From: Paludibacteraceae bacterium
Lineage (GTDB): Bacteria; Bacteroidota; Bacteroidia; Bacteroidales; Paludibacteraceae
Assembly: GCA_017559385.1 (NCBI GenBank)
Contig: JAFYSK010000034.1
Span: 22,246 to 86,245 of the forward strand
Length of the DNA stretch: 64,000 bases
Reading direction: 5' to 3'
Shown: piece after piece, positions 8,671-60,664 of the stretch
Layout: the number at the start of each line of letters is the position of its first letter
Position numbering within the stretch: the first letter of the stretch is position 1
The notes under the pieces: generated by a model
What the model was told of the DNA's origin: nothing
Seen by the model: the letters and a program-made list of their open reading frames with translations, nothing else
Databases searched by the model: none
Made by a program: the position numbers and the translations under genes

Positions 8671-8725
8671 ACTCCGTTATCACTCCGAAGGAACTCCGAA
8701 AGAACTCCGAAAGAACTCCTCTCAA
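8671..8725. repeat. Five 11-bp tandem repeats, ACTCCGAAAGA type
   Basis: Units start at 8671, 8682, 8693, 8704 and 8715; the first and last are degenerate. The array lies about 105 bp upstream of the yycJ promoter and just beyond the terminator of the T9SS operon. The 371-bp gap 8485-8855 contains this array, the promoter and the terminator, and no gene. Confidence 0.8.
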
Positions 8726-8754
8726 AAAAACTCCCACCTCAGAGGTGAGAGTTT
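8724..8754 (-). terminator. Intrinsic terminator of the T9SS/companion operon
   Basis: On the minus strand AAACTCTCACCTC (8754-8742) pairs with GAGGTGGGAGTTT (8740-8728), with one mismatch, and is followed by a run of seven T (to 8724). It lies about 100 bp after the stop of the small companion gene. Confidence 0.85.
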
Positions 8755-8855: not shown

Positions 8856-9329
8856 CTAATTATTATTCACACATGTTTTTTGTCTCTTCTTGTAGTGTCG
8901 ATAGGCTGAAATCAAGCCTAGTATTAGTATAAATACTACTACGTCCCAACTCATCTCTAGTGGAGTCGGTACACCCGGACCTCCTGGACGACCTTTACCT
9001 ACACTATAATTAGCGGATTCTTCATTGTTGGGATTTAGGTAATTAAATTCTTCATCAGCCAGGCCTGGTCTAAGACCACCACCTATGTTAGTTATGCGTT
9101 GTGTGGTTATCCTACCGGTGTATTTACCAACTACTTTATAATCCTCGCTATACTCATCGTTTTGATTTGATGTAGTAGGATTGATTTTATATTCTCGCAT
9201 GGGTGCAATAGACCGCATAGGTAGTGTATGTGGATTGTGCGAACCTATAGGATAGGTCGTGGAGAGTTTCGCAAAAGCAGGGGCAATCAGCAGAATAAAT
9301 GCCATAATGGTAACGTATATCTTTTTCAT
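8856..9329 (-). CDS. Small exported protein with C-terminal PGGP-helix-basic tail (T9SS companion)
   Basis: I do not recognise a named family. The 157 residues begin with a clear signal peptide (1-20, cut after APAFA), then a polar region. The end has a three-part tail: PGGPGVP (115-121), a hydrophobic helix (about 128-143) and the basic cluster RHYKKRQK (144-151). That order of short motif, membrane helix and positive residues is the layout of sortase/exosortase-type sorting signals. It also fits a simple C-terminal anchor. The gene follows the giant T9SS gene by 9 bp and is certainly co-transcribed. A similar small protein lies beside the second T9SS giant (41627-42025). Function unknown. 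Confidence 0.7.
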   Translation of the reverse strand: MKKIYVTIMAFILLIAPAFAKLSTTYPIGSHNPHTLPMRSIAPMREYKINPTTSNQNDEYSEDYKVVGKYTGRITTQRITNIGGGLRPGLADEEFNYLNPNNEESANYSVGKGRPGGPGVPTPLEMSWDVVVFILILGLISAYRHYKKRQKTCVNNN

Positions 9330-9338
9330 CTTTCTCTT

Positions 9339-12300
9339 TTAGTCCTGTTTTACAAATTTATATACATCATCATTAACGCGCACTACGTATACTCCTGTTC
9401 CCAAATGTTGGATAGGTAAAGTAGTTTGATTGTCAAAATGTTTATTCATCACTTCTTGTCCGTTGACATGATATACTACGGCATGTTGATTTGGCGTACC
9501 TGTGGCAATGCAGATATAGTTGTTAGTAATCCAAATGCTACCATTAGATATATTCTCGGTATCTGTCGTTACACCATTTTCATCAGGTGCTGTGTTGGGA
9601 AGCTCCGGATTTATTAATACTTGAAATCGCATATCATTAACCGACTTAGCAGGAGCCTGGAAGGTATATTCGCCCTCTTCTGCTAAAGCGATAATGCTAT
9701 CTGTTGCTAGATCTTTGATATACAGATCTTCGCCAATTAGCGATGTGAAACGTAAGGTGTAGGTCGTATCAGGACCTGCACAGAAGCCAATGTACATGCT
9801 GTCAATCTGATTAGATGCCGAGATCTCCATACTACCGCATGGCTCGTTGGTGTAGATGTTTACTTGTCCACTAGCATTCATGTTTAATCCATCATAACCG
9901 TTGTCATAGCCTGAAGTACAACGCATGTCTTGCAAGATGTACATACGATCCGAACCGCTGTTCTTGCCGTATGCTTGTATGCGGATACGACGTTGTAGGT
10001 GATCAGAAACGCCCTCCCGTCCTGGCATAGTCATAGGTTTGTTACCTGGAGTAGCGGTGTTCCAAACAAGTCGCTCGTAATCCAAATGGAGCTGGCATCC
10101 AGCCTCATTAGCCACTACATATACGCCTTGCATTGGAGCAATGGTTGTTGGGTCGTTGTTCGCATTTATGTTCTCAGCACTCAGCACGGGTATAGCAGTG
10201 TATTGGCCCGGTGCTTGAGTTGTAGTCAATACTCCGTTAGCCTCGTCGAAGGCACCTTGCCACTCATTCCACGAACCTGTATTGAATAGGTAGAAGGTCT
10301 TGAGCATATTGCCTGTAAAATCGTCTGCGGTAAATTTAGCAATATTGATAGGTGCTAAATAACTGTTGGTGAAGATGTTATCGCCCCAACCTGCATATTC
10401 TAAGGCTATATCTTGACTCTGATTGATTGGTGTAGTAGTCCATGTGTAAATAGGATGCCCCTCTTGTGTGATAGTATAACCCACAAATGGTTGCAATTCT
10501 ACTGTTCCTTCAGGTTGTTGCCATGAAGGTAATTGCATCCAACCCCATTGATCCGACCATTGGTATAGCCATGTCTCGCCCTTCTTCACTTCTACCTTTG
10601 TGCCCTTTCCTGGTGCACCTACATATTGCCATAGGCGATCGTTATCGGTGGCTTCTGCCATCTCGCTTGGCTGGCTTTTGGTGTGATAATCCACAGTCAC
10701 TATAGGCATATCTTCCTCCTTTACACTTGGATGAATACGTAGATAGCCTGCACCTTGTGGCTTGGTGTCTTGATGTATGGTTGAGTAGTTTTGAACGACG
10801 ACGCTAGAACCATCTTCTTTTTCGCCTATGATGCTATTGCTACCGATAGTAAGACCTCCTTCGTGGGTGATGGTCAATTGGCTATTATTCTCCAATATGA
10901 GCCCTCCTGCCTGCTGATCTTCGTCTATTTTTGCATTTGAACGAATGACCACTGGGTAATCTTCTAGTGTCGGTGTCGCTTTGATATTCCAGTTGTCTGT
11001 AGTTGACCATTGTTGGTCAAAATTCCCGTCATTATAATTTTCGTCATATACAATAGCTCCATCTACTACTAAATCATATTTGGCCGGTACTGCTATCGAG
11101 TTGTCATCCATTGGTTTACCACGGTTAAGGTTGTTTGATGCATTTGTTGTTTGATTACCATTGGTAAATTCGTATAAACGTCCACCTCCACTAGCAAATG
11201 TCAAAGGTTGTACCGCAGGATTGTGATCCGTGTCCATGGCATCATAATTAGGTAATGAATATACATACAACTTATGCCTAGAACCTGAGACTATAAATAG
11301 GTTACCCGCATAGTCAAATGCCAATCCATCAATAGTTGTGTTAGCATCGCCAATAGGTATCTCAAACATCCAGTCTTGGTTAAATCCAAACCAGGTTTTA
11401 TTATTGTCATTATAGAATAGTTTAAATACGCACACCTTACCCTTGAATCCTACCGCCAACATGGCCTCCGTGCTGTTCAATCCTCCTTTTTCGTATATAG
11501 CAACTTGTCCTGTTGGATAGGTCGTTTCAATCTCCTCATTTGGTTTATGAGGAGCAAGCAACTGACGCATAATCCACATAGGTGTGACTGATAATGCAGA
11601 AAAAGTCTCTTCTTCTACAGTACTCATAGCAAATTGGAAGTGCTTGTTCAATCCTGTACCATATTTTGATTTCTCTACATACCCATCTGGATGTATATGT
11701 GCTAAGAATGCATACTTGTCGATGCCTTGATATCGCTTTTGCGATACCCAAAAGCCGCCACGCGCATTCACCACCATCGTATTATCCGCATCTACCCATG
11801 GGTTAATCATATAGGGTTCGCCCTTTTTCGTTCCAGTTTTAGCAACTGTCTGTGGCTCGGTGCGTGGAGTATAATATTGCTCATATCCATCATATAGGTC
11901 ATCGCCATCCGATTTGATTAGTTTGTATATTGTTCCCGCACCACAGGTGTTGGCGTCTTGATCATTCGCCTTTTTTGCATTACTCATTACATATAATTCA
12001 CCTCCAGGACCAAAGGTCAAAGAGTTGATAGGATGGAGTGGGGATGAATTGAAATTGTCATTTATAGTAGGTATCAAATTCTCTGTTACATTCACCGCAT
12101 TTTCCCAGTCCAAACCATCTTTGGTGGGTTTTAGTTGGTAAATGGCAGATGCTGTACTACTGGTTGATCGGCAATAATATACATAACCATTAGCAGGGTT
12201 TACCGCAATACGGTGCATGTAGTAGTAAGTGAATTCAGTCGTGGGAGTTGGAAAACTAACACCTTTGGGCATGATGCCGTCAGCTATTTTTTTGTAGGTA

Positions 12301-13061
12301 CCCGTAGCAGGATTTGGCTCAAATACAGCGATACCTGCAGGGTGTAGAGAGCTAGATAATTTATCACCACCGTATGCTGGATTGTTAGCGATATATACAC
12401 GACCAAAGTACTCAGACTGTGGGTTGTTATCTATCGCTATACCCTGTGGATTTTGGAAGTGGGCATCTTCCATTAATCGACGTGGCTCACGAACTTGTTC
12501 ATATAGGGCACCCTTATCGTCTGGACCAACTTTATTACTAGTGCCAGCATATGAATTATAGTTATATGCTTTTTCGTTGTTCATTTCATAATCTAAGGCC
12601 GCGGTTGCTGCTGGATTACGACCGATAATTTTATCGTTCTTTAACTCAATAGCCCAAGTCATATTCTTGTAGGCCCTTTTGTTAGTAACATCTACAGGAA
12701 TTTTTGATTTGCTCAAAGAGAATGAGTGTTCGTCTTTATCATTCTTTTGAGTTAGAACATCATTCGGAATTTTATAACGTCCAACTTCTGTTCCTGATTC
12801 ATTGCGATTGTCATCTCCATCTTGGTCGTTGTAGAAAATTAACCATCCCTCTTTTGCTTCTAGATTTGACTTAAAGTAAAAGGTATAAGTTCCTAGAATC
12901 GTTCCCTCTGGTTCTTCGTATTCGTACCTTAATCCATAGGCAAACACACGCAACTGATTCTCATCGTTGGTGTCAGCCTTTGCTTCTTGCACAAACCAAG
13001 TGCCCCATCCACAAAACAGATAGGCGCACAAAAATACCACAATTTGTTCAATTGTTTTCAT
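9339..13061 (-). CDS. Giant T9SS type A cargo protein with propeller-like repeats
   Basis: A 1240-residue secreted protein. The signal peptide is about 1-30. Residues about 190-630 contain repeated NPQGIAID, GIAVFEPN and GLAFDYAGNLFIVSG segments of an NHL/SMP-30-like beta-propeller. Residues about 700-780 look like a beta-solenoid or carbohydrate-binding region (GGLILENNSQLTI). The last 75 residues form a T9SS type A sorting domain ending GTGVYVVRVNDDVYKFVKQD. The protein should cross the outer membrane by T9SS and lose this domain. Substrate or ligand cannot be read from the sequence. It is the first gene of a two-gene operon with the small companion. Confidence 0.85.
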   Translation of the reverse strand: MKTIEQIVVFLCAYLFCGWGTWFVQEAKADTNDENQLRVFAYGLRYEYEEPEGTILGTYTFYFKSNLEAKEGWLIFYNDQDGDDNRNESGTEVGRYKIPNDVLTQKNDKDEHSFSLSKSKIPVDVTNKRAYKNMTWAIELKNDKIIGRNPAATAALDYEMNNEKAYNYNSYAGTSNKVGPDDKGALYEQVREPRRLMEDAHFQNPQGIAIDNNPQSEYFGRVYIANNPAYGGDKLSSSLHPAGIAVFEPNPATGTYKKIADGIMPKGVSFPTPTTEFTYYYMHRIAVNPANGYVYYCRSTSSTASAIYQLKPTKDGLDWENAVNVTENLIPTINDNFNSSPLHPINSLTFGPGGELYVMSNAKKANDQDANTCGAGTIYKLIKSDGDDLYDGYEQYYTPRTEPQTVAKTGTKKGEPYMINPWVDADNTMVVNARGGFWVSQKRYQGIDKYAFLAHIHPDGYVEKSKYGTGLNKHFQFAMSTVEEETFSALSVTPMWIMRQLLAPHKPNEEIETTYPTGQVAIYEKGGLNSTEAMLAVGFKGKVCVFKLFYNDNNKTWFGFNQDWMFEIPIGDANTTIDGLAFDYAGNLFIVSGSRHKLYVYSLPNYDAMDTDHNPAVQPLTFASGGGRLYEFTNGNQTTNASNNLNRGKPMDDNSIAVPAKYDLVVDGAIVYDENYNDGNFDQQWSTTDNWNIKATPTLEDYPVVIRSNAKIDEDQQAGGLILENNSQLTITHEGGLTIGSNSIIGEKEDGSSVVVQNYSTIHQDTKPQGAGYLRIHPSVKEEDMPIVTVDYHTKSQPSEMAEATDNDRLWQYVGAPGKGTKVEVKKGETWLYQWSDQWGWMQLPSWQQPEGTVELQPFVGYTITQEGHPIYTWTTTPINQSQDIALEYAGWGDNIFTNSYLAPINIAKFTADDFTGNMLKTFYLFNTGSWNEWQGAFDEANGVLTTTQAPGQYTAIPVLSAENINANNDPTTIAPMQGVYVVANEAGCQLHLDYERLVWNTATPGNKPMTMPGREGVSDHLQRRIRIQAYGKNSGSDRMYILQDMRCTSGYDNGYDGLNMNASGQVNIYTNEPCGSMEISASNQIDSMYIGFCAGPDTTYTLRFTSLIGEDLYIKDLATDSIIALAEEGEYTFQAPAKSVNDMRFQVLINPELPNTAPDENGVTTDTENISNGSIWITNNYICIATGTPNQHAVVYHVNGQEVMNKHFDNQTTLPIQHLGTGVYVVRVNDDVYKFVKQD

Positions 13062-34289: not shown

Positions 34290-34727
34290 ATGAAAAAAAT
34301 GATGGCCCTAGTGGCAACCTTATTGTTTGTGTTTACGGCTTGTGCTGATGATTATCAGCGTGTAGTACAGTTTCGTTCTTTGCCTGTGTTGGCACAAAGT
34401 TTTATTAAGAAGCATTTTAGTGCAGATGATGTCTCTCGTGTAGTGATGGAGCGCGAGGGCTTGTTCCGCGAGTATTCCGTTTATATGAGAGATGCTACTG
34501 AGCTCGAGTTTAATCATCAGGGCAATCTATTGTCGGTTGACTGCCAATATTCTCCTGTACCAGCCAGTATTATTCCTCAAACTATTGTTGAGTATGTTAA
34601 TTATCATTATCCAGATGATTTTATCACGGAGTATGTTGTCAAGACTCGTCGCTTAGAGATTGGCATGAGCAACGATTTAGAATTGATTTTTGATCTTAGT
34701 GGCAATTTCTTAGGAGTGGACGACTGA
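34290..34727 (+). CDS. PepSY-like (BLIP-fold, DUF2874) secreted protein
   Basis: A 145-residue protein with a signal peptide, possibly a lipoprotein (VFTACAD, Cys at 18). The rest has two repeats of the PepSY-like fold: LPVLAQSFIKKHFSADDVSRV / ELEFNHQGNLLSVDC and IPQTIVEYVNYHYPDDFITE / ELIFDLSGNFLGVD. Such proteins are common in Bacteroidetes and resemble beta-lactamase-inhibitor-like folds; none has an assigned role that I can infer here. It is a single-gene unit with its own terminator. Confidence 0.8.
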   Translation: MKKMMALVATLLFVFTACADDYQRVVQFRSLPVLAQSFIKKHFSADDVSRVVMEREGLFREYSVYMRDATELEFNHQGNLLSVDCQYSPVPASIIPQTIVEYVNYHYPDDFITEYVVKTRRLEIGMSNDLELIFDLSGNFLGVDD

Positions 34728-34814: not shown

Positions 34815-37800
34815 TTAGTGCACGATTACTTGCGCTTGCTCTATGCTACCGTCTCGTAGTGTCACATCCACGATGTACACGCCTGGGGTGCAAGCTGTGT
34901 GGAGTGTGAGGCTATTGGTGATGAGGCTATTAGGCGATGAGGCGATAGGGCTATTAGGTGATTGGGCGATGAGGCGACCGGTGAGGTCGTAGAGTGTCGC
35001 ACTCTTAATCAAATCGCTTGATGATACCACTACGGTGCTGCGGTCAGGAGCGTATGCCCATACCTTGTTGCCTGTGGTTGATACATTAGGTTGGGTGGTA
35101 GAGGTGGTTACACCATCTGAACCTTGGTAGGTGTCAGGACCTTCGATAGAGTAGCGTTGCTCGTGGTTCTCTGGCATCTCGATGGAGATGATCAAACCGT
35201 TCATAATACGTACTTTTTGACCTGTTTTGTGATCTACAAAGTAGCAGGTGCGTGACCAGTTAGATGTGAAGTAGAATGCTAGTTGCATATACTCTTGACG
35301 CGCATTATCCGCTGCTAGGATAGCCACTGGAATACTGCTGATACCTTGACGTACGTCTGCCATCATTGGCACTTGCTCGGCTACGGTGTACATATTGAGT
35401 GGTGATTTCACTTCGCTAATGTTCTCCACTCCCGTTGAGATAAAGAGTGCATCTTCGCCTACAAGGTAGTAGTCGTTGGCGATAGGGTTGGTCGCCACTA
35501 CTGTACGTGCGTGTGCGTTTTCCATTAGTGCGTATATGGTTAGCATCTCAGTAGCTTGTGCATCTTCGTTCTCTAGACGTTCTGACTCGTATGTTGCCAT
35601 GCGACGAGCAGTGATAGATTGGCTATTTTTTTCATCCTCATCTGCTTGTTCCATAGGATTAACCATGTTGTTGAGTGTCAGGTGCGATGGCTTCAAGTTG
35701 ATAGTCATAAAGGTATTAGCTCCTGTGCTTTCCAATAAGACTGAAGTCATAGGTGGCAGATAGCGGTCTTCTATCATTGTGAGTTGAGTAGCAGAACGCC
35801 ATGCGCTGTTGGCCATTCCCTGGAAGTTACCTGTCCAGCCACTTTCTTTATTATCAACATACAAAGCGTGCATATCAATATACGCCATGGTTGGGTTACC
35901 GAAGAGGAAATATGGGCTAGCAACTGCGTTGGTTAATTCGATAACCATAGGATCATTCTCCTTATCGTGGTCAGAGTCATATGCCAATTTACCACGAACC
36001 TCAGCTGATTCAGGTATTGTCACATATTTTCCACTAACTGCGCCATCTACATAGTAACTATATTGTTCATCTGGTTTTGGCAGACGGATAGTGAGTTCTT
36101 CTTTGTCTTTCCAACCCAAACCATATAATTGGTAACCACTACCTGGAGTGAGGGGCTGTGCCAATGTGTTGGATTTGATAAACTCGGCACTAACTGTTTG
36201 TGCTACTTCACTATTAGGTGTTACTGTTGATACTGTAGTGTTGTAGAATCCCTCCCAGAAGGCGTATGCTGCATCTGCGTGGCGAATACCTTGGAAACCA
36301 CTTACTACGAATGGGTCAGGTTCTGCAATTAGGTTATTTTGGCTTTCGCTATACCAACCAGTATGTGGGATAAACATATCACCAGATACCATTCCCTTGA
36401 GTGGAGCTGACATCATATGCCAAGAACCTGCTGTGATTTGCATATCCACGAATGCTCTCTTATGTTCCAAGAGATGTTGGTTGTGGATACGAGTACCTGG
36501 AGCAAAATAGATACTATTGCAATGATGAGGGTCGTAACCTATCGTCAATTCATAGTGATTATGATCATGCTCTGGAACGATGTATGGATATAGCAGTGAG
36601 TTGTCCAATTTAGGGATAATAACATTGGTCTCGGATATAGGCACAAATCCTTCTACTAGTTCGCCTTCGTCTATTTGGTTGTTGCTGTTGGTGTCTTTCC
36701 AACCTTTCCAGTTTTCGTTCTTACCCCAACCGTTGAAGGAATTTCCTGTAGGTTGCCATACAAGGGTTTGAGGCACGATTTGCAGATTGAGGAATACATA
36801 ACCATAGCGGCAAGTTGCACTTGGGTCAGATTCTGCACTAGTATTAGCATTCTTCATTGTCAAACGAATGGTGTATTCGTTGCCAACTTCTAATGTTGGT
36901 TTTTCTTGATATGGTTTGCCTGATTCTAGGTCAAAATATGTCAAGTTTAGATCATCTAAACGTAATGTAATCTGTCGGGTTTCTAAATCTGCACCATCAG
37001 TCTTTATTTGATTGCTTATTTCTTTAATAGGTATCGTAATCGTTTCGCTACCCTCTAGCACCTTCAGTATTGGTATCTGCACATGTTGTTGAGGCGTTTT
37101 TTCTGCATATGTGATAGGTGCAATATTCATGTAGTGGTCGCCTCCTGCAATAATGGATACTGTTACGCGGTGTGGCTCGTTACAGTCCTTGAGCGTTATT
37201 TCGCTTTCAGGTGTTCCGTCTTTGTCTGTGTCTACTTTTGTTTTTGCTGTTTCAGCAATAGGAAAACACCAATAACGTACGGTGTCGCCGATTGTATTGC
37301 CTTCTTTGTCAAGTCGTGTACCAAGATAGAAGTGTACGGTGGTATCGCATAGTTGCAACCAACCGTTTTCGTAAAGATGCTTAACGATTTCGTAGTTCTC
37401 GTGAGATAGGAAACGGTTTGGTTGGAGTTCTTCAAATGTCTTCGCCGAATAATTAGGGTTGTAGTCACGACTATTTGGGTCGTCTGTGGTATAGCGACGC
37501 ATATCGTACATGATAGCTGAAGTTACTTCATCGTGGGTATAGCCGTACATTTTCTTGAAACCTGCAACAGCAGCTTGCAAACGGGCGTTGTAGTCTGTCA
37601 AAGCTGTTTGGTATTCGTTATCCGTGTTATAATCACTTCTTGAAGGAGCTTTCTCCGATAGCACATCACCTTGTGGATCGCCTATCAACCAATCGGAGAA
37701 AATAGGTGCCGCAATGTTCTCAGTATTGCCTCCTGCACCATCAACGGCCAAATGATTAATTACCGTGGAGGTAAGGAAGTAGAGGTCATTAGGGCAGTTC

Positions 37801-40800
37801 TGGGTAGAGTTGGAGAATATGTACTCTATACCCCCATCGCTATTATTCGCTATCAGTTTATCTCTATCCTGTGAGTGTTTAATTGTCGCCTTGTCGGAAT
37901 TGCGCAGTTTAAATACCGTTTGTTGGGTAGCGTGCAATGGAGTGGTCAAGTTACACTCAGCAGTAGGCAACTCTTCTGAGGTATATGCCATACGCATAAC
38001 GTATTGGTGTTCATCAAAGAGTTTTTGTAATGGAATTTGCTTTCTCTTTTCTTGATCTTGTTCTTCATTTATTTCTTTTTGGGTTGTGCTCTCAACGAGG
38101 TGAACCACATAGAGCAACCATTTTGTTACTCCACTTTGTATAGTGCGGATATATGCTTTGCCATGTTTTTGATTATTCAATACCAAGTCATCCAAAAAAG
38201 CGGATACAGAGGTGTAAATAAGTAGGGTATCTGTTCGGTTTTTGTCTTCCTTTAACAATTCATCATTATATACCTCTGGGTCAAATCCTTTTTCTGGTAT
38301 ATGCACAGAACCGTATGGGTGATCGTGGTTATTGTCGCCATGACCATCATCATAGTCGTGGTAATATGCGGCATCGCCTGTAAGGTTGACAGGGGCACCA
38401 ACAATGACTGTACCATTCGCATCTTTATTTTCGTATGACTCGTTGTAGATTTGGTAGAACATATATCCATCGCTACCTGCGGTGATATTGTTGTAGTCAA
38501 GGCGCAAAACGGCAGCAGCTGTAGTTGTTCCACCCTCTATGCTACGGCATGCCATCTCGCCTTGGTAAGCAGCGATAGGAAGTTGCGAGACGAAGAGTGT
38601 AATATCGTCCACCATAAAGTCGTTACCTTGGTTGGTGGTAGCGAAGTTGTAAATAGATACGCGTGTCTCGTCGTAGCTACTAGCCGATTGGATAGGGAAT
38701 ACGATTTGTTGCCATCCAGAACCTTTGAGCAACTCACCTACGAAATAAACACCTGCGTCGTGCCATTCTGTTTCGCCTATATTCTTACCTTGGATATTAC
38801 AACGGAAGATAGGGTTACCTTCTCCAGACCATCCACTAGGGGCAGGGTTGCAGAACCAAGCAGAGCAATACATCGTCTGACCGGAACATATCTTGGCGTG
38901 GGCAGTAATGCTTGCCACCAATCCAGGCTCCATGGTTCCGTCCACGTAGAGCGATTTACCAGTTCCGCCGTGTGCAGAAGCTCTTGCCCAATCTTTGTTC
39001 ACCGATTCTAGGATGGTGTACTCGCCATAGAATGGGAACGCACCTTGGCTTGCGCCGCGCCTAAAGTTGGTAGCCAAGTCGCCTGCGGTATACACATATC
39101 CGTAGGATGCTTGCTCCCAAGGTAAGTGTCCTGTTGTTTCGTTGAAGTTGATTTCTTCAAGATTCTTGTATTGGGTATTGATGCGTTGTTGGGTGATAAT
39201 GGTCTTGCTGGTAGGACCTTGTCGCTCAATATCCACGAACTCTACCTCAAAGCGAGCAATGAGTAAGGTTTGTTCGTTGTTTGCTACTCCTGCTGGCATT
39301 TCAAGTGTGTACACCTTTGGTTCTTCGTACAAATAATTATCGTTACGCACAATCAGGTAGTCCATCTCGGCACTGTACTGAGGTGTATATTCTTCTCGGT
39401 TGCTTCCGTCTGCATCAGAAACATACCATTTGAGTATGTTGGCATTGTTTCTGTTGTCTATTTGCTTTATATTGCCCGAATTATCTCTGTAGAAATAGCA
39501 TAACTCAGATTCGTGTGAGCGCACTTTGCTATGTCGGTATTCGGTAGAAAGGAGAATCTGCTTACCTGCAGGTGCTTGGTATTTGTATTCCTCCAAGTAC
39601 TCACCTCTTGCACTTCTAGCTGCCAGAGTGTCTGCCATCTCGCTTGCTGGGCGCAAGTGGAAGAGTTGGCGATAAGAGAGGGTTGGCTCTTGAATTGTAT
39701 CAATACGAGTTTGGTTGGTTCTATTGTACACTATTCGATAATCGGTATATGCACTCACATCGCAGGCCATCGTGTGTGCTGCACCACTATTCCAACCCTT
39801 GATAATAGGCATTGGGTTGTAGGGATTACCCTCGTCTAGGATACCGCCATTCGCTTTGTTGATGGCATAGAGACCATAAGAGTAACCTTCTGTGCCAATC
39901 ATGCTACTGCTTTGAGGGGTATTGATAGCAGAGAATGGATTGCCATTGGCTGCACGTGGTGATAGAACCCAATGGGTTGAGTCTTTGTCGTGGGCGTAGT
40001 TGTAGTATGGGTCACCATTAGTCTCATAGTCGTACCAACGCATATATCCCGAGAAACCAGACTCTGGCAGACGGAGTTCTATCTCTTGGTTTGGCAAGTA
40101 GTAGATGGTTCGCTCGGCGGTGTGTACTTGTTGACGACCATCACTACCCAAAGCGTCACCTGATTGTCCTTTGTTTGTAATAAATTGGATACCACCTTCC
40201 ATACCTCGTTGGTGAAGTGGAATCATAAAACTATCCTTGTGCAGGTGAGCATCTTCGCCTGCTGTCTTCTCCATTACAACAACAAGGGTGTCCGAACGCT
40301 TTAAGCCGGTGGTGTTTGGATCTGCTATAATATAGATGTTTCCATTGTTTTGGAACTCTGTTTCATTTAGCTTCAACCAATTCGCTCCACCGAGGAAACG
40401 AGGTGTTTTCTCCCAGGCATCTTCGCCTGTAAAATGTTCATGAAACTTATTCAGTTTGACATGCACAGGTCCGTAGGTACAATTTGTTATTATAGCTTGG
40501 TTATCCACGTTGTAGATTACGCTACCGTGTTGGTGGGTAAGAGTCACATCAAACTGCTTGGTCTCTGTTCCTTCTTTGGAGAAAGTGTAGGTAACAGGGT
40601 TGATGGAGAAAGAGATGGTAGGCAATACCTCATCGTGGTATGCCTTACGCACAACGCGCATCTCTGCTGTTTGTGTCTCGCCACCTCCATAGGTGTATTC
40701 TACGACTATGTTGTCCGCATAGTCAATCCAACGCTCCAAGGTACCCAATTTATCTTTCAATCCCATTGGACTTGCTCCTTCTGGGGTGATAGTGAATTGC

Positions 40801-41630
40801 CATTGACTATCCTGGCTTATAGGGTCGCTAATAGTCATCAAGGTGCGGTTTGCATCTTGATGGGCAACATACTTGCTAATATCTAGGTTAGAAGATTTAT
40901 CTTTGGAACTTGCCCAATAGATGTTTGTTATTTTGATTTGACTTGCATCTACATCGCCTGTGCTGCGGCGGAGCAATGCTTCGTCTTGGCGTGGTACGCA
41001 TTGGTAGTACGACTCGGTAGTAGCTTCAATCTCAAAAGATACGGGACGTGCTTGCGCTGCAGCTTCTGCTTCGTCTTTTGCATAGGTAAACTCAATCTTG
41101 GAAGGTGAGAAGTGTCCTGTAGGTTTGCCTGCACCTTTTTGTTCCCATTTCTCAATGTATATGCTGTTGTTTGTCCAGCTGTGTGAGGTGAAGTATGGTC
41201 CACTACCGCCCCATTCGCTATCAATATACATAGAAATGGTAGTCCACCATGGCTGATAATACAAGGAGAAGTACAAATGACCATGCATATACTGGTTGAC
41301 AACGCTATTTTGGTTGTTGAACGAAAAAGCGGTTGGCTCTTGTGCAAGAATCAACTGAGAGTTACTAGGGTCTGTAAAATTAACAGATAGAAATCGCCTA
41401 GTAGTCAAATCTTGGAGGGTATAGTTGCCATTTTGATCTACACCTAATACCCACAAACAGTCATCTGTAGGATATGGTTGGGTTAAAATACCATTACGAC
41501 TGGCTTCTAGATAATAACGAGCATCATTGGCCAGAAAACTGATAGACACCACATCTCCATTATTGAGATATTGTGCCTGCATACCAGCAAACGAAAATAT
41601 AGCGGATAAAATGATTAGAAGTCGTTTCAT
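34815..41630 (-). CDS. Giant T9SS type A cargo protein, 2271 residues
   Basis: Signal peptide about 1-19 (IFSFAGMQA, then QY). Multiple beta-rich segments follow. Residues about 20-150 resemble a ricin/fascin-like beta-trefoil (YYLEASRNGILTQPYPTDDC). A jelly-roll-like region around 880-1010 (FMVDDITLFVS) fits a carbohydrate-binding or CUB-like module. Residues about 1690-1760 (GSWHMMSAPLKGMVSGDMF) mark the surface domain seen in many Bacteroidales T9SS proteins. The T9SS type A sorting domain is at the C-terminus (ATLYDLTGRLIA ... TPGVYIVDVTLRDG). That domain is interrupted by SPNSPIASSPNSLITNS, encoded by 8-bp repeats. No catalytic motif is evident. Its start overlaps the stop of the small companion gene by 4 bp. 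Confidence 0.85.
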   Translation of the reverse strand: MKRLLIILSAIFSFAGMQAQYLNNGDVVSISFLANDARYYLEASRNGILTQPYPTDDCLWVLGVDQNGNYTLQDLTTRRFLSVNFTDPSNSQLILAQEPTAFSFNNQNSVVNQYMHGHLYFSLYYQPWWTTISMYIDSEWGGSGPYFTSHSWTNNSIYIEKWEQKGAGKPTGHFSPSKIEFTYAKDEAEAAAQARPVSFEIEATTESYYQCVPRQDEALLRRSTGDVDASQIKITNIYWASSKDKSSNLDISKYVAHQDANRTLMTISDPISQDSQWQFTITPEGASPMGLKDKLGTLERWIDYADNIVVEYTYGGGETQTAEMRVVRKAYHDEVLPTISFSINPVTYTFSKEGTETKQFDVTLTHQHGSVIYNVDNQAIITNCTYGPVHVKLNKFHEHFTGEDAWEKTPRFLGGANWLKLNETEFQNNGNIYIIADPNTTGLKRSDTLVVVMEKTAGEDAHLHKDSFMIPLHQRGMEGGIQFITNKGQSGDALGSDGRQQVHTAERTIYYLPNQEIELRLPESGFSGYMRWYDYETNGDPYYNYAHDKDSTHWVLSPRAANGNPFSAINTPQSSSMIGTEGYSYGLYAINKANGGILDEGNPYNPMPIIKGWNSGAAHTMACDVSAYTDYRIVYNRTNQTRIDTIQEPTLSYRQLFHLRPASEMADTLAARSARGEYLEEYKYQAPAGKQILLSTEYRHSKVRSHESELCYFYRDNSGNIKQIDNRNNANILKWYVSDADGSNREEYTPQYSAEMDYLIVRNDNYLYEEPKVYTLEMPAGVANNEQTLLIARFEVEFVDIERQGPTSKTIITQQRINTQYKNLEEINFNETTGHLPWEQASYGYVYTAGDLATNFRRGASQGAFPFYGEYTILESVNKDWARASAHGGTGKSLYVDGTMEPGLVASITAHAKICSGQTMYCSAWFCNPAPSGWSGEGNPIFRCNIQGKNIGETEWHDAGVYFVGELLKGSGWQQIVFPIQSASSYDETRVSIYNFATTNQGNDFMVDDITLFVSQLPIAAYQGEMACRSIEGGTTTAAAVLRLDYNNITAGSDGYMFYQIYNESYENKDANGTVIVGAPVNLTGDAAYYHDYDDGHGDNNHDHPYGSVHIPEKGFDPEVYNDELLKEDKNRTDTLLIYTSVSAFLDDLVLNNQKHGKAYIRTIQSGVTKWLLYVVHLVESTTQKEINEEQDQEKRKQIPLQKLFDEHQYVMRMAYTSEELPTAECNLTTPLHATQQTVFKLRNSDKATIKHSQDRDKLIANNSDGGIEYIFSNSTQNCPNDLYFLTSTVINHLAVDGAGGNTENIAAPIFSDWLIGDPQGDVLSEKAPSRSDYNTDNEYQTALTDYNARLQAAVAGFKKMYGYTHDEVTSAIMYDMRRYTTDDPNSRDYNPNYSAKTFEELQPNRFLSHENYEIVKHLYENGWLQLCDTTVHFYLGTRLDKEGNTIGDTVRYWCFPIAETAKTKVDTDKDGTPESEITLKDCNEPHRVTVSIIAGGDHYMNIAPITYAEKTPQQHVQIPILKVLEGSETITIPIKEISNQIKTDGADLETRQITLRLDDLNLTYFDLESGKPYQEKPTLEVGNEYTIRLTMKNANTSAESDPSATCRYGYVFLNLQIVPQTLVWQPTGNSFNGWGKNENWKGWKDTNSNNQIDEGELVEGFVPISETNVIIPKLDNSLLYPYIVPEHDHNHYELTIGYDPHHCNSIYFAPGTRIHNQHLLEHKRAFVDMQITAGSWHMMSAPLKGMVSGDMFIPHTGWYSESQNNLIAEPDPFVVSGFQGIRHADAAYAFWEGFYNTTVSTVTPNSEVAQTVSAEFIKSNTLAQPLTPGSGYQLYGLGWKDKEELTIRLPKPDEQYSYYVDGAVSGKYVTIPESAEVRGKLAYDSDHDKENDPMVIELTNAVASPYFLFGNPTMAYIDMHALYVDNKESGWTGNFQGMANSAWRSATQLTMIEDRYLPPMTSVLLESTGANTFMTINLKPSHLTLNNMVNPMEQADEDEKNSQSITARRMATYESERLENEDAQATEMLTIYALMENAHARTVVATNPIANDYYLVGEDALFISTGVENISEVKSPLNMYTVAEQVPMMADVRQGISSIPVAILAADNARQEYMQLAFYFTSNWSRTCYFVDHKTGQKVRIMNGLIISIEMPENHEQRYSIEGPDTYQGSDGVTTSTTQPNVSTTGNKVWAYAPDRSTVVVSSSDLIKSATLYDLTGRLIAQSPNSPIASSPNSLITNSLTLHTACTPGVYIVDVTLRDGSIEQAQVIVH
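34912..34975. repeat. Eight 8-bp tandem repeats, GATGAGGC/TATTAGGC, inside the T9SS sorting domain
   Basis: Units of 8 bp (GATGAGGC, TATTAGGC, GATGAGGC, GATAGGGC, TATTAGGT, GATTGGGC, GATGAGGC) run from 34912 to 34975. The 21-mer at 34922-34942 is identical, on the opposite strand, to 58842-58862 inside recR. A 16-bp part also matches 4807-4822 in the CobW gene. Confidence 0.85.
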
Positions 41631-42025
41631 AGTGTATGAGATGTTTTGTGGTTACGGAATAGTTTAACAACGATATACGCAGCAGCCATCACCAAGAGTG
41701 GCAATAGCATATCGCCTGCAGGCACGGAGGCGTCACCTACGGCAGGGCCGCCAGGATTCTCACCGCGGCTGCGGCGTGGGCCTTGTGGTTGTTCGGTGAA
41801 GAGAGTTTGGGATGCAGCCTCAGCTGGGTTGTAGGCTTTGTATGTGTGCCCAGGGGAATAAGTGACCGTTTGAACAACTTCCTTTTGGATAGCAGAGAAA
41901 GACGCGGTCTTAGTTGTGGATAATGAACTCCAACCTCCAGTAGATGGGGTAGCAGAGGCGGCTCCGGTAGTACCAAAGACCTGCATGTTAGCAGTGCTGG
42001 AGATGGTATGTAGTGGTTTCGTCAT
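41627..42025 (-). CDS. Small protein with C-terminal PGGP/VPAGD-helix-basic tail (T9SS companion)
   Basis: No named family recognised. The 132 residues lack an obvious N-terminal signal peptide and are Ser/Thr-rich (about 8-50). They end with PGGP (91-94), VPAGD (101-105), a hydrophobic helix (106-120) and KLFRNHK (121-127). This matches the tail layout of the companion at 8856-9329. It is translationally coupled (4-bp ATGA overlap) to the 2271-residue T9SS protein and is the first gene of that operon. The tail could be a recognition signal for a protease or sortase, or a plain anchor. Function unknown. Confidence 0.65.
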   Translation of the reverse strand: MTKPLHTISSTANMQVFGTTGAASATPSTGGWSSLSTTKTASFSAIQKEVVQTVTYSPGHTYKAYNPAEAASQTLFTEQPQGPRRSRGENPGGPAVGDASVPAGDMLLPLLVMAAAYIVVKLFRNHKTSHTL

Positions 42026-42075: not shown

Positions 42076-42106
42076 CAAAGATACGAAGAAATTTCCAATT
42101 AAACAA
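42076..42106 (-). promoter_or_regulatory. Promoter of the second T9SS operon
   Basis: TTG at 42106-42104, 20 bp, TATCTTTG at 42083-42076 on the minus strand. The start near 42069 gives a 44-nt leader, in contrast to the 320-nt leader of the first T9SS operon. Confidence 0.8.
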
Positions 42107-42399
42107 ATCTTAGATGTGAAAAAATATAAATATTTTTATTTTGATAAATGGAGCTGACAAAAGTAGGGTGATTATGAGGTGTGAGTGATGAATTTTTACT
42201 AGAATCCCATAGAATGATGGCAGATGTTATACTTCAACGGCGAATGGAGTAAATAAAACAAAAATCATCACTACTGTTTTTCTTTCATAAAATTGCAGAT
42301 TGATAGAGTGTATTAACCAAAATTATTTACTAAAACAGCGAATTATTCTTACGATCTTAACACATGGGTGAGGTGTTTCTTCTAAGGTAATGGGCGATA

Positions 42400-42465
42400 A
42401 ATCACCTAAGAATAACCTATAAATCACCAAAGAATCACCAAAGAATCACTAAAGAATCACTAAAG
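42400..42465. repeat. Six 11-bp tandem repeats, AATCACCAAAG type
   Basis: Units at 42400, 42411, 42422, 42433, 42444 and 42455; the last four differ only at one C/T. The array lies in the 634-bp gap 42026-42659 between two divergent transcripts. Apart from this array and the two promoters, I see nothing recognisable in that gap. Confidence 0.8.
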
Positions 42466-42608
42466 ATTTATAGGGTAATCAAGGGTGTGGTGTGAACCCG
42501 TCATGAACCCGTAAAAGTCAGGTTCTCGATGACAACAGGAATCATTCAAGTTTGCAGTTGCGTAGTTCGCGAATAGGATAGGACAAATGTATAAAATGTT
42601 TACAAAAT

Positions 42609-60124: not shown

Positions 60125-60664
60125 ATGAATCTCAAACTCCGCAAAATAGAACCATCTGATCTTCCATTCCTCTATCAATGGGAGAATGATGCCACCATGT
60201 GGGCTGATTCGGATACACATAATCCGCTATCTCGCCATGATTTGCATCAATACATCGAGAATACCACGGGCGACATCTACCGCGATGGCCAACTGCGCCT
60301 CATCATCGAAGACTCTCAACTCTCAACTTTCAACTCTCAACTTTCAACTCTCAACTCTCAACTCTCAACTGAAATTGTAGGTTGTATCGATCTCTTTGAT
60401 TTTGACGCACGCAACCGCAAGGCTGCTATCGGCATGTATATTGCTCAAGATGCTAGAGGTAAAGGGGTAGGTAAGCAAGCCGTGCAATTATTGTTGGATT
60501 ATGCGTTTGGATACTTGCACCTGCGTATGCTATATGCAATCATCAGTGTGCATAACACAGCGTGCTCACATATCTATGAGCAGATGGGTTTTGCGGCCTC
60601 ATCTGTGCTGCATGACTGGACGTTAGAGGGTGATGCCGTGTTGTGGCAAAAACTGAATAGGTAA
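60125..60664 (+). CDS. GNAT acetyltransferase interrupted by a heptanucleotide tandem repeat
   Basis: A 179-residue protein of the RimJ/RimL-like branch. LRKIEPSDLPFLYQWEND is the N-terminus, GMYIAQDARGKGVGKQAVQL the acetyl-CoA loop (Q/R-x-x-G-x-G), and ISVHNTACSHIYEQMGF the C-terminal signature. Residues about 63-82 are NSQLST repeats encoded by eight 7-bp units (60313-60368), between strands 2 and 3, where the family has a short loop. Because 7 is not a multiple of 3, loss or gain of one unit would truncate the protein. The substrate is unknown. Confidence 0.82.
   Translation: MNLKLRKIEPSDLPFLYQWENDATMWADSDTHNPLSRHDLHQYIENTTGDIYRDGQLRLIIEDSQLSTFNSQLSTLNSQLSTEIVGCIDLFDFDARNRKAAIGMYIAQDARGKGVGKQAVQLLLDYAFGYLHLRMLYAIISVHNTACSHIYEQMGFAASSVLHDWTLEGDAVLWQKLNR
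60313..60368. repeat. Eight 7-bp repeats, CTCTCAA, in the GNAT gene
   Basis: Units start at 60313, 60320, 60327, 60334, 60341, 60348, 60355 and 60362; two read CTTTCAA, the others CTCTCAA. Three units make a 21-bp, 7-residue period (NSQLSTL). Confidence 0.95.

Follow-up and report, generated by a model that had tools for sequence, protein, structure and literature searches.

Candidate exosortase substrates with a PID-CTERM-like tag encoded beside large secreted proteins in a Paludibacteraceae genome

The window analyzed here is a 64,000-nucleotide (nt) stretch of the genome of a Paludibacteraceae bacterium (GenBank assembly GCA_017559385.1, contig JAFYSK010000034.1, positions 22,246–86,245). 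It contains two gene pairs, A and B, in which a small gene is coupled to a gene for a giant secreted protein. Sequence comparisons indicate that the small genes probably encode exosortase substrates with a PID-CTERM-like C-terminal tag, paired with mostly type IX secretion system (T9SS)-type cargo. The tag defines a family whose genes lie beside T9SS-type genes, co-occur with an exosortase gene and occasionally adjoin it, and in some genomes are fused in frame to a second protein. A preliminary description of this DNA had compared the two tails to signals recognized by sortase or exosortase-like enzymes. That reading gains from a conserved tag, an exosortase gene in the genome and the co-occurrence of the two; it loses the PGGP motif on which it had leaned, an intact tag in protein A and a T9SS domain in one class of giant partners (class 1, below).

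The two gene pairs

The coordinates, order and spacing first given for the pairs are exact. In pair A the cargo gene comes first and the small gene follows after 9 nt; in pair B the order is reversed, and the stop of the small gene overlaps the start of the cargo gene by 4 nt (ATGA). Genes were called as plain open reading frames (ORFs), and the genome is 85% complete. The features of the pairs are:

8856–9329, minus strand: small protein A, 157 amino acids (aa), with a signal-peptide-like N-terminus, a G/P-rich region, a degenerate tag, a helix and a basic end
8859–8969, minus strand: degenerate tag of A, PTPLEMSWDVVVFILILGLISAYRHYKKRQK..., missed by the tag profiles A4 and A6
9339–13061, minus strand: large secreted cargo A, 1240 aa, directly upstream of A
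9345–9503, minus strand: T9SS type A-like C-terminal domain of cargo A, 22.7 bits (cut-off 23)
41627–42025, minus strand: small protein B, 132 aa, no signal peptide seen, C-terminal tag
41630–41722, minus strand: tag of B, PAGDMLLPLLVMAAAYIVVKLFRNHK...
34815–41630, minus strand: giant cargo B, 2271 aa, overlapping B by 4 nt
34821–35039, minus strand: T9SS type A C-terminal domain of cargo B, 24.7 bits (cut-off 23)
42076–42107, minus strand: Bacteroides-type promoter-like TTTG-N20-TATCTTTG ahead of B, read by eye

The T9SS assignments refer to TIGR04183, the model of the type A C-terminal sorting domain, with a cut-off of 23 bits. The earlier identification of both large proteins as T9SS cargo stands for cargo B and falls just short of the cut-off for cargo A. 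Cargo B also has a weak BACON match (18.4 bits, cut-off 25).

Proteins A and B both end in a hydrophobic stretch followed by a basic end. Their N-termini differ: mean hydropathy over 17 residues is 2.41 in A, which is signal-peptide-like, and 0.39 in B, which is not. Neither protein matches Pfam, and the sole NCBIfam match is that of B to JDVT-CTERM (E 0.21). The module had been described as seen twice, which is too low. The genome contains seven such small proteins, and for six of these the adjacent ORF is 647–3006 aa long; a limit of two copies was therefore rejected. Four of the seven lie beside a TIGR04183 match at E ≤ 0.01, with 22.7 bits for the neighbor of A, 24.7 for that of B, 24.0 for that of L002 and 27.6 for that of L003.

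A conserved C-terminal tag

The tag lies at the C-terminus and consists of Pro-(Ile/Val/Leu)-Gly-(Asp/Glu), one helix and a basic end; across the family it reads P-[ILV]-G-[DE]-[AM]-[LV]-LPLLLMAxAY...RRKR. Family proteins are about 100–230 aa long, and many contain an FQSTSTMQGSGSxY-like motif and GPRR. We fetched 34 relatives from GTDB contigs with six close sequences, using search patterns that lie within the N-terminal motif only. P-[IVL]-G occurs within the last 48 residues of all 34, followed by D or E in 31, and in 2 of the 292 other ORFs of the same loci. This comparison is a fair test of the tag because the relatives were fetched by their N-terminal motif, whereas the tails behind profiles A4 and A6 were cut with the tag motif itself; for the latter reason the invariant P of A4 and A6 was rejected as evidence. 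The tail is thus a conserved element resembling a sorting signal, as had been proposed. PGGP, previously named as the shared motif, is incidental: it is not kept in the family alignments and was rejected in favor of P-[IVL]-G-[DE] with its helix and basic end.

The 34 loci all come from assemblies titled Bacteroidales or Paludibacteraceae, some of them from goat, deer and sheep. In each, the small gene follows a giant ORF at a distance of −29 to 71 nt; these giants measure 1262–3320 aa, two of them being truncated where the stretch ends. Within the genus, alignment A1 has P in 29 of 29 sequences and G in at least 90%. The genus set was drawn from L001–L033, leaving out L004 and L029, which are interrupted by internal stops, and L024, a fused frame that was handled separately; A1 also omits L019 and L023, and A4 omits L009, for which an antisense frame had been picked. 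With protein B as query (E ≤ 0.1), matches are found in 37 of 61 same-genus genomes, its own included, and in 2 of 40 others, weakly in each case. When B is left out of the profile, a search of all ORFs of the window still recovers it at E 5e-14.

The tag extends beyond the genus. Profile A4, built from genus tails only, matches 16 of 393 Bacteroidales genomes at E ≤ 0.001, and it finds short relatives, such as SP-PPPPPGG...GGGAPIGEGLLVLATLAAAYGVRKWK, that lie just behind T9SS-type ORFs. The broader profile A6 matches 127 of the 393 at E ≤ 0.01; it comprises 33 of 45 tails, with shifted ends in L082 and L086, while L038 and L080 were missed by the tail extraction.

Protein A was rejected as a full member by layout alone because the tag profiles do not find it. 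Three of four near genomes searched with A contain a match, the best being in G058 (32% identity, E 1e-8). These relatives keep the motif (IPLGLEWDVLFLMILMAFVYAIF in the G058 match, TPIGDGWDVAVFLLLLCVGYALY in that of G014), and both follow an ORF with a C-terminal domain that is similar by eye. The tags of L208 ('IPLGLEWDVLFLMILM'), L210 ('TPIGDGWDVAVFLLLL') and A ('TPLEMSWDVVVFILIL') can be compared directly. By sequence, A is a decayed member of the family and TPLEMSWDVVVFILIL its eroded motif; we place it there on the strength of the relatives that keep the motif, though the profiles miss A itself.

The same tails could be plain membrane anchors, in which case the small proteins would be uncut, single-helix inner-membrane helpers (chaperone, docking or timing factors) for T9SS export. 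The hydrophobic helix and basic end of the members read are all that an anchor needs, and A keeps its helix despite the decayed motif. An anchor would need no conserved Pro-x-Gly, and the count of 34/34 against 2/292 makes this explanation unlikely.

An exosortase in the same genome

An exosortase-like gene, which the preliminary description had suggested seeking in the genome, is present. The ORF (L205; genome G000, C10:53856–54428) encodes 190 aa and matches TIGR04178, the general signature of the exosortase/archaeosortase family (cut-off 23 bits), with 72.5 and 70.3 bits. TIGR04178 exceeds its cut-off in 57 of 61 same-genus genomes and 17 of 40 other Bacteroidales genomes; among 14 control genomes it is found in three, all archaea. 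The genus genomes without a match are G012, G018, G032 and G035. In the genome studied here the first base of the exosortase ORF is also the last base of an ORF named tsaD-like by eye, and the exosortase directly follows a tsaD-like ORF in 8 of 10 same-genus loci.

Residues Cys99, Asn137, Arg140 and His159 are invariant in the 8 exosortases aligned. The Cys, Asn, Arg and His are also invariant in a set of 32, where only the His is independent, as 30 of these ORFs were picked with a pattern requiring Cys and Arg; L158 was not re-found for this alignment. A Cys-Arg-His triad has been proposed for EpsH (PMC1569441, in its available text), and the invariance of Cys99, Arg140 and His159 agrees with that proposal.

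Co-occurrence of tag and enzyme

The exosortase is found in 165 of the 393 Bacteroidales genomes, and it co-occurs with the tag. At a tag threshold of E ≤ 1e-4 the enzyme is present in 95 of 103 tag-positive and 70 of 290 tag-negative genomes (both/tag only/enzyme only/neither, 95/8/70/220), and at E ≤ 0.01 the corresponding counts are 110/17/55/211. The Fisher p value is about 1e-35 or below. After collapse to 120 family labels (f1–f120) the counts are 46/1/28/45 and p is 2e-12. An equivalent pattern is seen with the curated NCBIfam model NF046080 ('PID-CTERM protein-sorting domain-containing protein', cut-off 26 bits), which matches 48 of 296 Bacteroidota genomes, 47 of them over the cut-off, and none of 14 control genomes. 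Here the counts are 48/0/65/183 (p 4e-24), with the enzyme in all 48 PID-CTERM-positive genomes and in 65 of 248 negative ones. Single genomes can carry many tags for few enzymes, with ratios of tag to enzyme matches of 19:2 in G346, 19:1 in G422 and 15:1 in G358.

Tag and enzyme genes are neighbors in at least seven genomes. In G722 the PID-CTERM gene L109 adjoins an exosortase X ORF (186 bits, cut-off 170), which itself has as neighbor an ORF with a sub-cut-off match to an XrtX-associated protein. A 68-aa PLDGG protein overlaps the enzyme ORF in G241, and a 64-aa PIDGG protein lies 85 nt upstream of the enzyme in G223. In G523, G566, G496 and G484 the tag and enzyme matches are 257–435 nt apart. 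An uncut anchor would need neither this adjacency nor the co-occurrence, although the tag-positive genomes in which no exosortase was found, and the members such as B that have no signal-peptide-like segment, sit comfortably with one.

These data bear on two further explanations. One is that another enzyme (a rhomboid, a sortase or a PorU-type protease) recognizes the tag and that its correlation with the exosortase arises indirectly. In favor of this, other CTERM models match weakly (JDVT-CTERM in 3 and MYXO-CTERM in 2 of 27 relatives). We regard it as quite improbable, since the correlation holds in two surveys, which among these candidate enzymes covered the exosortase, and in direct gene neighborhoods and the closest curated tag model, PID-CTERM, has an accession adjacent to that of exosortase X (NF046081). 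By eye, no LPXTG motif is seen in the tails of A1 or of the wider alignment; sortase genes were not searched for. The other is shared descent, whereby some Bacteroidales lineages have each retained exosortase and tags for unrelated reasons, and tags pair with T9SS genes simply through the abundance of the latter. The survey genomes are indeed non-independent, many coming from the same families. The association nevertheless persists after family collapse, the tag neighbors differ sharply from control ORFs in their T9SS domains (see below), and the T9SS gene SprA is present in 20 of the 21 genomes tested whether or not they carry the tag, which leaves shared descent with only a very slight chance of being the explanation. 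The 20 include the genome studied here, and six of them have neither tag nor enzyme; T9SS presence was therefore rejected as the cause of the tag–enzyme correlation.

T9SS-type neighbors

The expectation that homologues of the small proteins lie beside T9SS cargo is mostly borne out outside the genus and not for the giants of class 1, in which the giant precedes the small gene. Outside the genus, 78 loci were taken in, of which 15 were not re-found, for reasons that include contig edges and fused frames, and 9 duplicated other loci, leaving 54 distinct loci that are the best-scoring ones rather than a random draw. Fifty of these have an upstream ORF, and its C-terminus matches TIGR04183 at E ≤ 0.01 in 41 (41 of the 54 loci). 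Among control ORF ends in the same loci the model matches at most 3 of 52, being absent from the 25 families listed, three ORFs each.

None of the 34 giants paired with class-1 small proteins matches TIGR04183, even at E ≤ 1. In a profile comparison of their C-terminus with type A domains only the preceding stretch aligns, with 4% probability. On these two results the designation of every giant as proven T9SS cargo was rejected for class 1. The class-1 giants (upstream, L041–L074) share a short conserved ending, KVLIDGxLYIxKDGxxYDARGxxVK, with no match to any T9SS model. It could represent a sorting domain that is either new or truncated.

Two arrangements and in-frame fusions

The pairs of the window exemplify two arrangements: A is of the cargo-following, signal-bearing kind and B of the giant-preceding, signal-less kind (class 2). 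Among 30 genus loci examined, a large ORF lies no more than 400 nt upstream in 20, and a signal-peptide-like segment is present in 18 of these 20 small proteins. Nine have a giant only downstream; all nine lack such a segment and seven overlap the giant by exactly 4 nt. The exceptions without a signal-like segment are L010, whose neighbor is 386 nt away, and L022; L006 lies at a contig edge. L039, in the genome studied here and outside the 30-locus set, comes after its cargo and likewise seems to have no signal.

Six ORFs that lie complete within the fetched sequence carry the tag protein joined in frame to the front of another protein:

Fusion ORFs: L215:296–6031, L216:190–6798, L211:370–2295, L212:413–2323, L213:678–2915, L214:798–2696

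In G305 (1911 aa) and G043 (2202 aa) a basic loop connects the tag protein to a class-1-type giant at its signal peptide. Three ORFs of G346 (636–745 aa) and one of G161 (632 aa) consist of a signal peptide, about 30–40 residues, the tag, a basic loop and a lipoprotein-like signal. These signals read LGMTSC, LAFTGC and LIGTTGC, which we take to be lipoboxes. In one lipoprotein-like fusion a Fimbrillin-like domain is weakly matched (19 bits, cut-off 27). Of three stand-alone tag genes of G346 that were viewed, two lie just downstream of ORF ends that are type A-like by eye. The fused members carry the tag internally, not at the extreme C-terminus. Fusion supports a functional link between the partners, and also a topology with the N-terminal side of the tag outside and its basic end inside. 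The fusion ORFs possibly yield two secreted products each.

Surroundings of the pairs

A TAA stop directly precedes the ATG of B. The promoter-like site listed ahead of B was read against the Bacteroides promoter consensus. Around pair A a promoter scan gives 10 sites against 14.7 expected, below the shuffle level, and terminator-like sites number 7 against 3.7 expected. After small gene A lies a terminator-like hairpin (8724–8751, minus strand), CTCTCACCTCTGAGGTGGGAG followed by TTTTTTT, seen by eye and unlisted by the terminator scan. The long gap ahead of B and a divergent gene contains an 11-bp repeat in about six copies (AATCACCAAAG, plus strand, 42400–42466). Other tandem repeats of the window lie at 60312–60370 (7 bp, 8.4 copies, 92% matches) and 764–824 (11 bp, 5.5 copies). 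The end of cargo B is adjoined on the opposite strand by a PepSY-like protein (34290–34727; PF11396, 66 bits).

Points against an exosortase substrate

Several observations weigh against reading the small genes as exosortase substrates paired with T9SS cargo, beginning with the absence of TIGR04183 matches in the class-1 giants. Within the genome itself, L039 follows a 1521-aa ORF that is similar by eye and matches no T9SS model, L038 precedes a 647-aa secreted-looking ORF that also matches none, and L040 has no adjacent secreted gene. The tag of A has decayed, and the profile that recovers B scores A at −1.8 and so misses it. The PID-CTERM model (26 bits) matches neither A nor B and nothing else in the genome. 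The signal-less members (B, the eight other giant-preceding ones, L010, L022 and L039) are unusual for exosortase substrates, and cleavage and attachment at the tag are predictions from sequence.

The enzyme reaches 85.8 bits with the exosortase X model (NF046081), below the cut-off of 170. Its score with the XrtF model is 56.3 bits (cut-off 90), and on such scores it forms a putative subfamily related to XrtX and XrtF and separate from them.

The co-occurrence also has exceptions. G018, G032 and G035, the last 97% complete, have a tag match with no exosortase found, which speaks against strict dependence. Eight of the 103 tag-positive genomes (E ≤ 1e-4) likewise have no exosortase found; for six of the eight (G073, G402, G194, G282, G449 and G260) the family label is also that of a genome with the enzyme, and the other two are both tag-positive genomes of family f76. 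Conversely, 55 of the 165 exosortase-positive genomes lack the tag at E ≤ 0.01. The surveyed genomes are related, and relatedness is controlled coarsely, by the family collapse only. The motif invariance of A4 and A6 proves nothing, given how their tails were cut, and A6 includes tails from several genomes of the surveyed order.

Relation to known systems

The statement that no named system has this pairing overlooked the NCBIfam models PID-CTERM and exosortase X, which in the literature searched are without a paper and known as database models. PID-CTERM matches weakly in 5 of 27 relatives (best E 1.7e-4; an E of 4.6e-4 corresponds to 20 bits). The resemblance lies in small proteins with an N-terminal hydrophobic segment, a P/G-rich linker, a P-I-D motif, a helix and a basic end (by eye), in the position of most of the loci read, immediately behind an ORF whose end is T9SS type A-like, and in an exosortase in the same genome, as here and in the 48 PID-CTERM genomes. 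B and the family share the layout of motif, single helix and basic extreme C-terminus, with G in place of D; A shares the helix and basic end only. The system described here differs in its P-I-G-D/E motif and in having some members that lack a signal-peptide-like segment and precede their giant.

PorP/SprF-like proteins are outer-membrane proteins. Type B C-terminal domain cargo with PorP/SprF-like partners offers a parallel in which a large T9SS cargo gene adjoins a dedicated partner proposed as its anchor (PMC9143113, in its available text); here the partner is a small single-helix protein beside type A-like cargo.

PEP-CTERM/EpsH, as set out in the available text of PMC1569441, is similar in its motif, helix and basic end, in the many tags per genome, in the proposed Cys-Arg-His triad and in its detection by phylogenetic profiles. 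It differs from the present case, where the motif is not PEP and the partners are T9SS-type cargo. XrtF of Flavobacterium johnsoniae (PMC10936215) is likewise a Bacteroidota exosortase, and our enzyme has the sub-cut-off match to its model given above. The available part of that study reports a role in surface colonization for both exosortase-system genes and T9SS genes, and defers the exosortase substrates, expected to be unlike PEP-CTERM, to future work. Small-partner/T9SS cargo pairs are not described in the available portions of the literature searched on exosortase and T9SS. Our searches turned up no description of the P-I-G variant, of the pairing with T9SS cargo, of the signal-less class or of the fusions.

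Proposed mechanism and implications

We infer the steps of cleavage, transfer to an acceptor, attachment and surface location, and the role of the small protein for the giant, as follows. Several to many envelope proteins would carry at their end a PID-CTERM-like tag, made up of P-[IVL]-G/D-x, a helix and a basic end, which would retain the protein in the inner membrane so that the motif faces the periplasm. An XrtX-like exosortase would then cut near the P-I-G/D motif and hand the N-terminal part to an acceptor. Retention, cutting and hand-over in this scheme are predicted from the exosortase model of Haft (PMC1569441, in its available text). For class-2 proteins such as B, the short N-tail may be pulled across the membrane by the reversed anchor. 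Most of the substrates examined have their gene beside that of one large secreted protein, usually T9SS cargo, an arrangement that would allow joint production of the two. Once matured, the small protein most likely acts on the cell surface as an anchor or assembly partner for its own cargo, much like the role proposed for PorP/SprF-like proteins with type B cargo (available text of PMC9143113).

More tentatively, and at somewhat less than even chances, T9SS and exosortase sorting may form one coupled surface-assembly pathway in many Bacteroidota. Cargo partners would be exosortase-processed and encoded with their cargo either as a gene pair or as a polyprotein in which tag, cytoplasmic loop and second signal peptide form a hairpin; a single translation event would then deliver two surface proteins at a fixed ratio.

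The findings provide candidate exosortase substrates in relatives of F. johnsoniae, whose own substrates are an open question in the available text of PMC10936215. They would establish a physical link between two surface-sorting systems, and many small genes beside T9SS cargo become a testable system. If the coupled T9SS–exosortase pathway is true, it names substrates for the exosortases of Bacteroidota.

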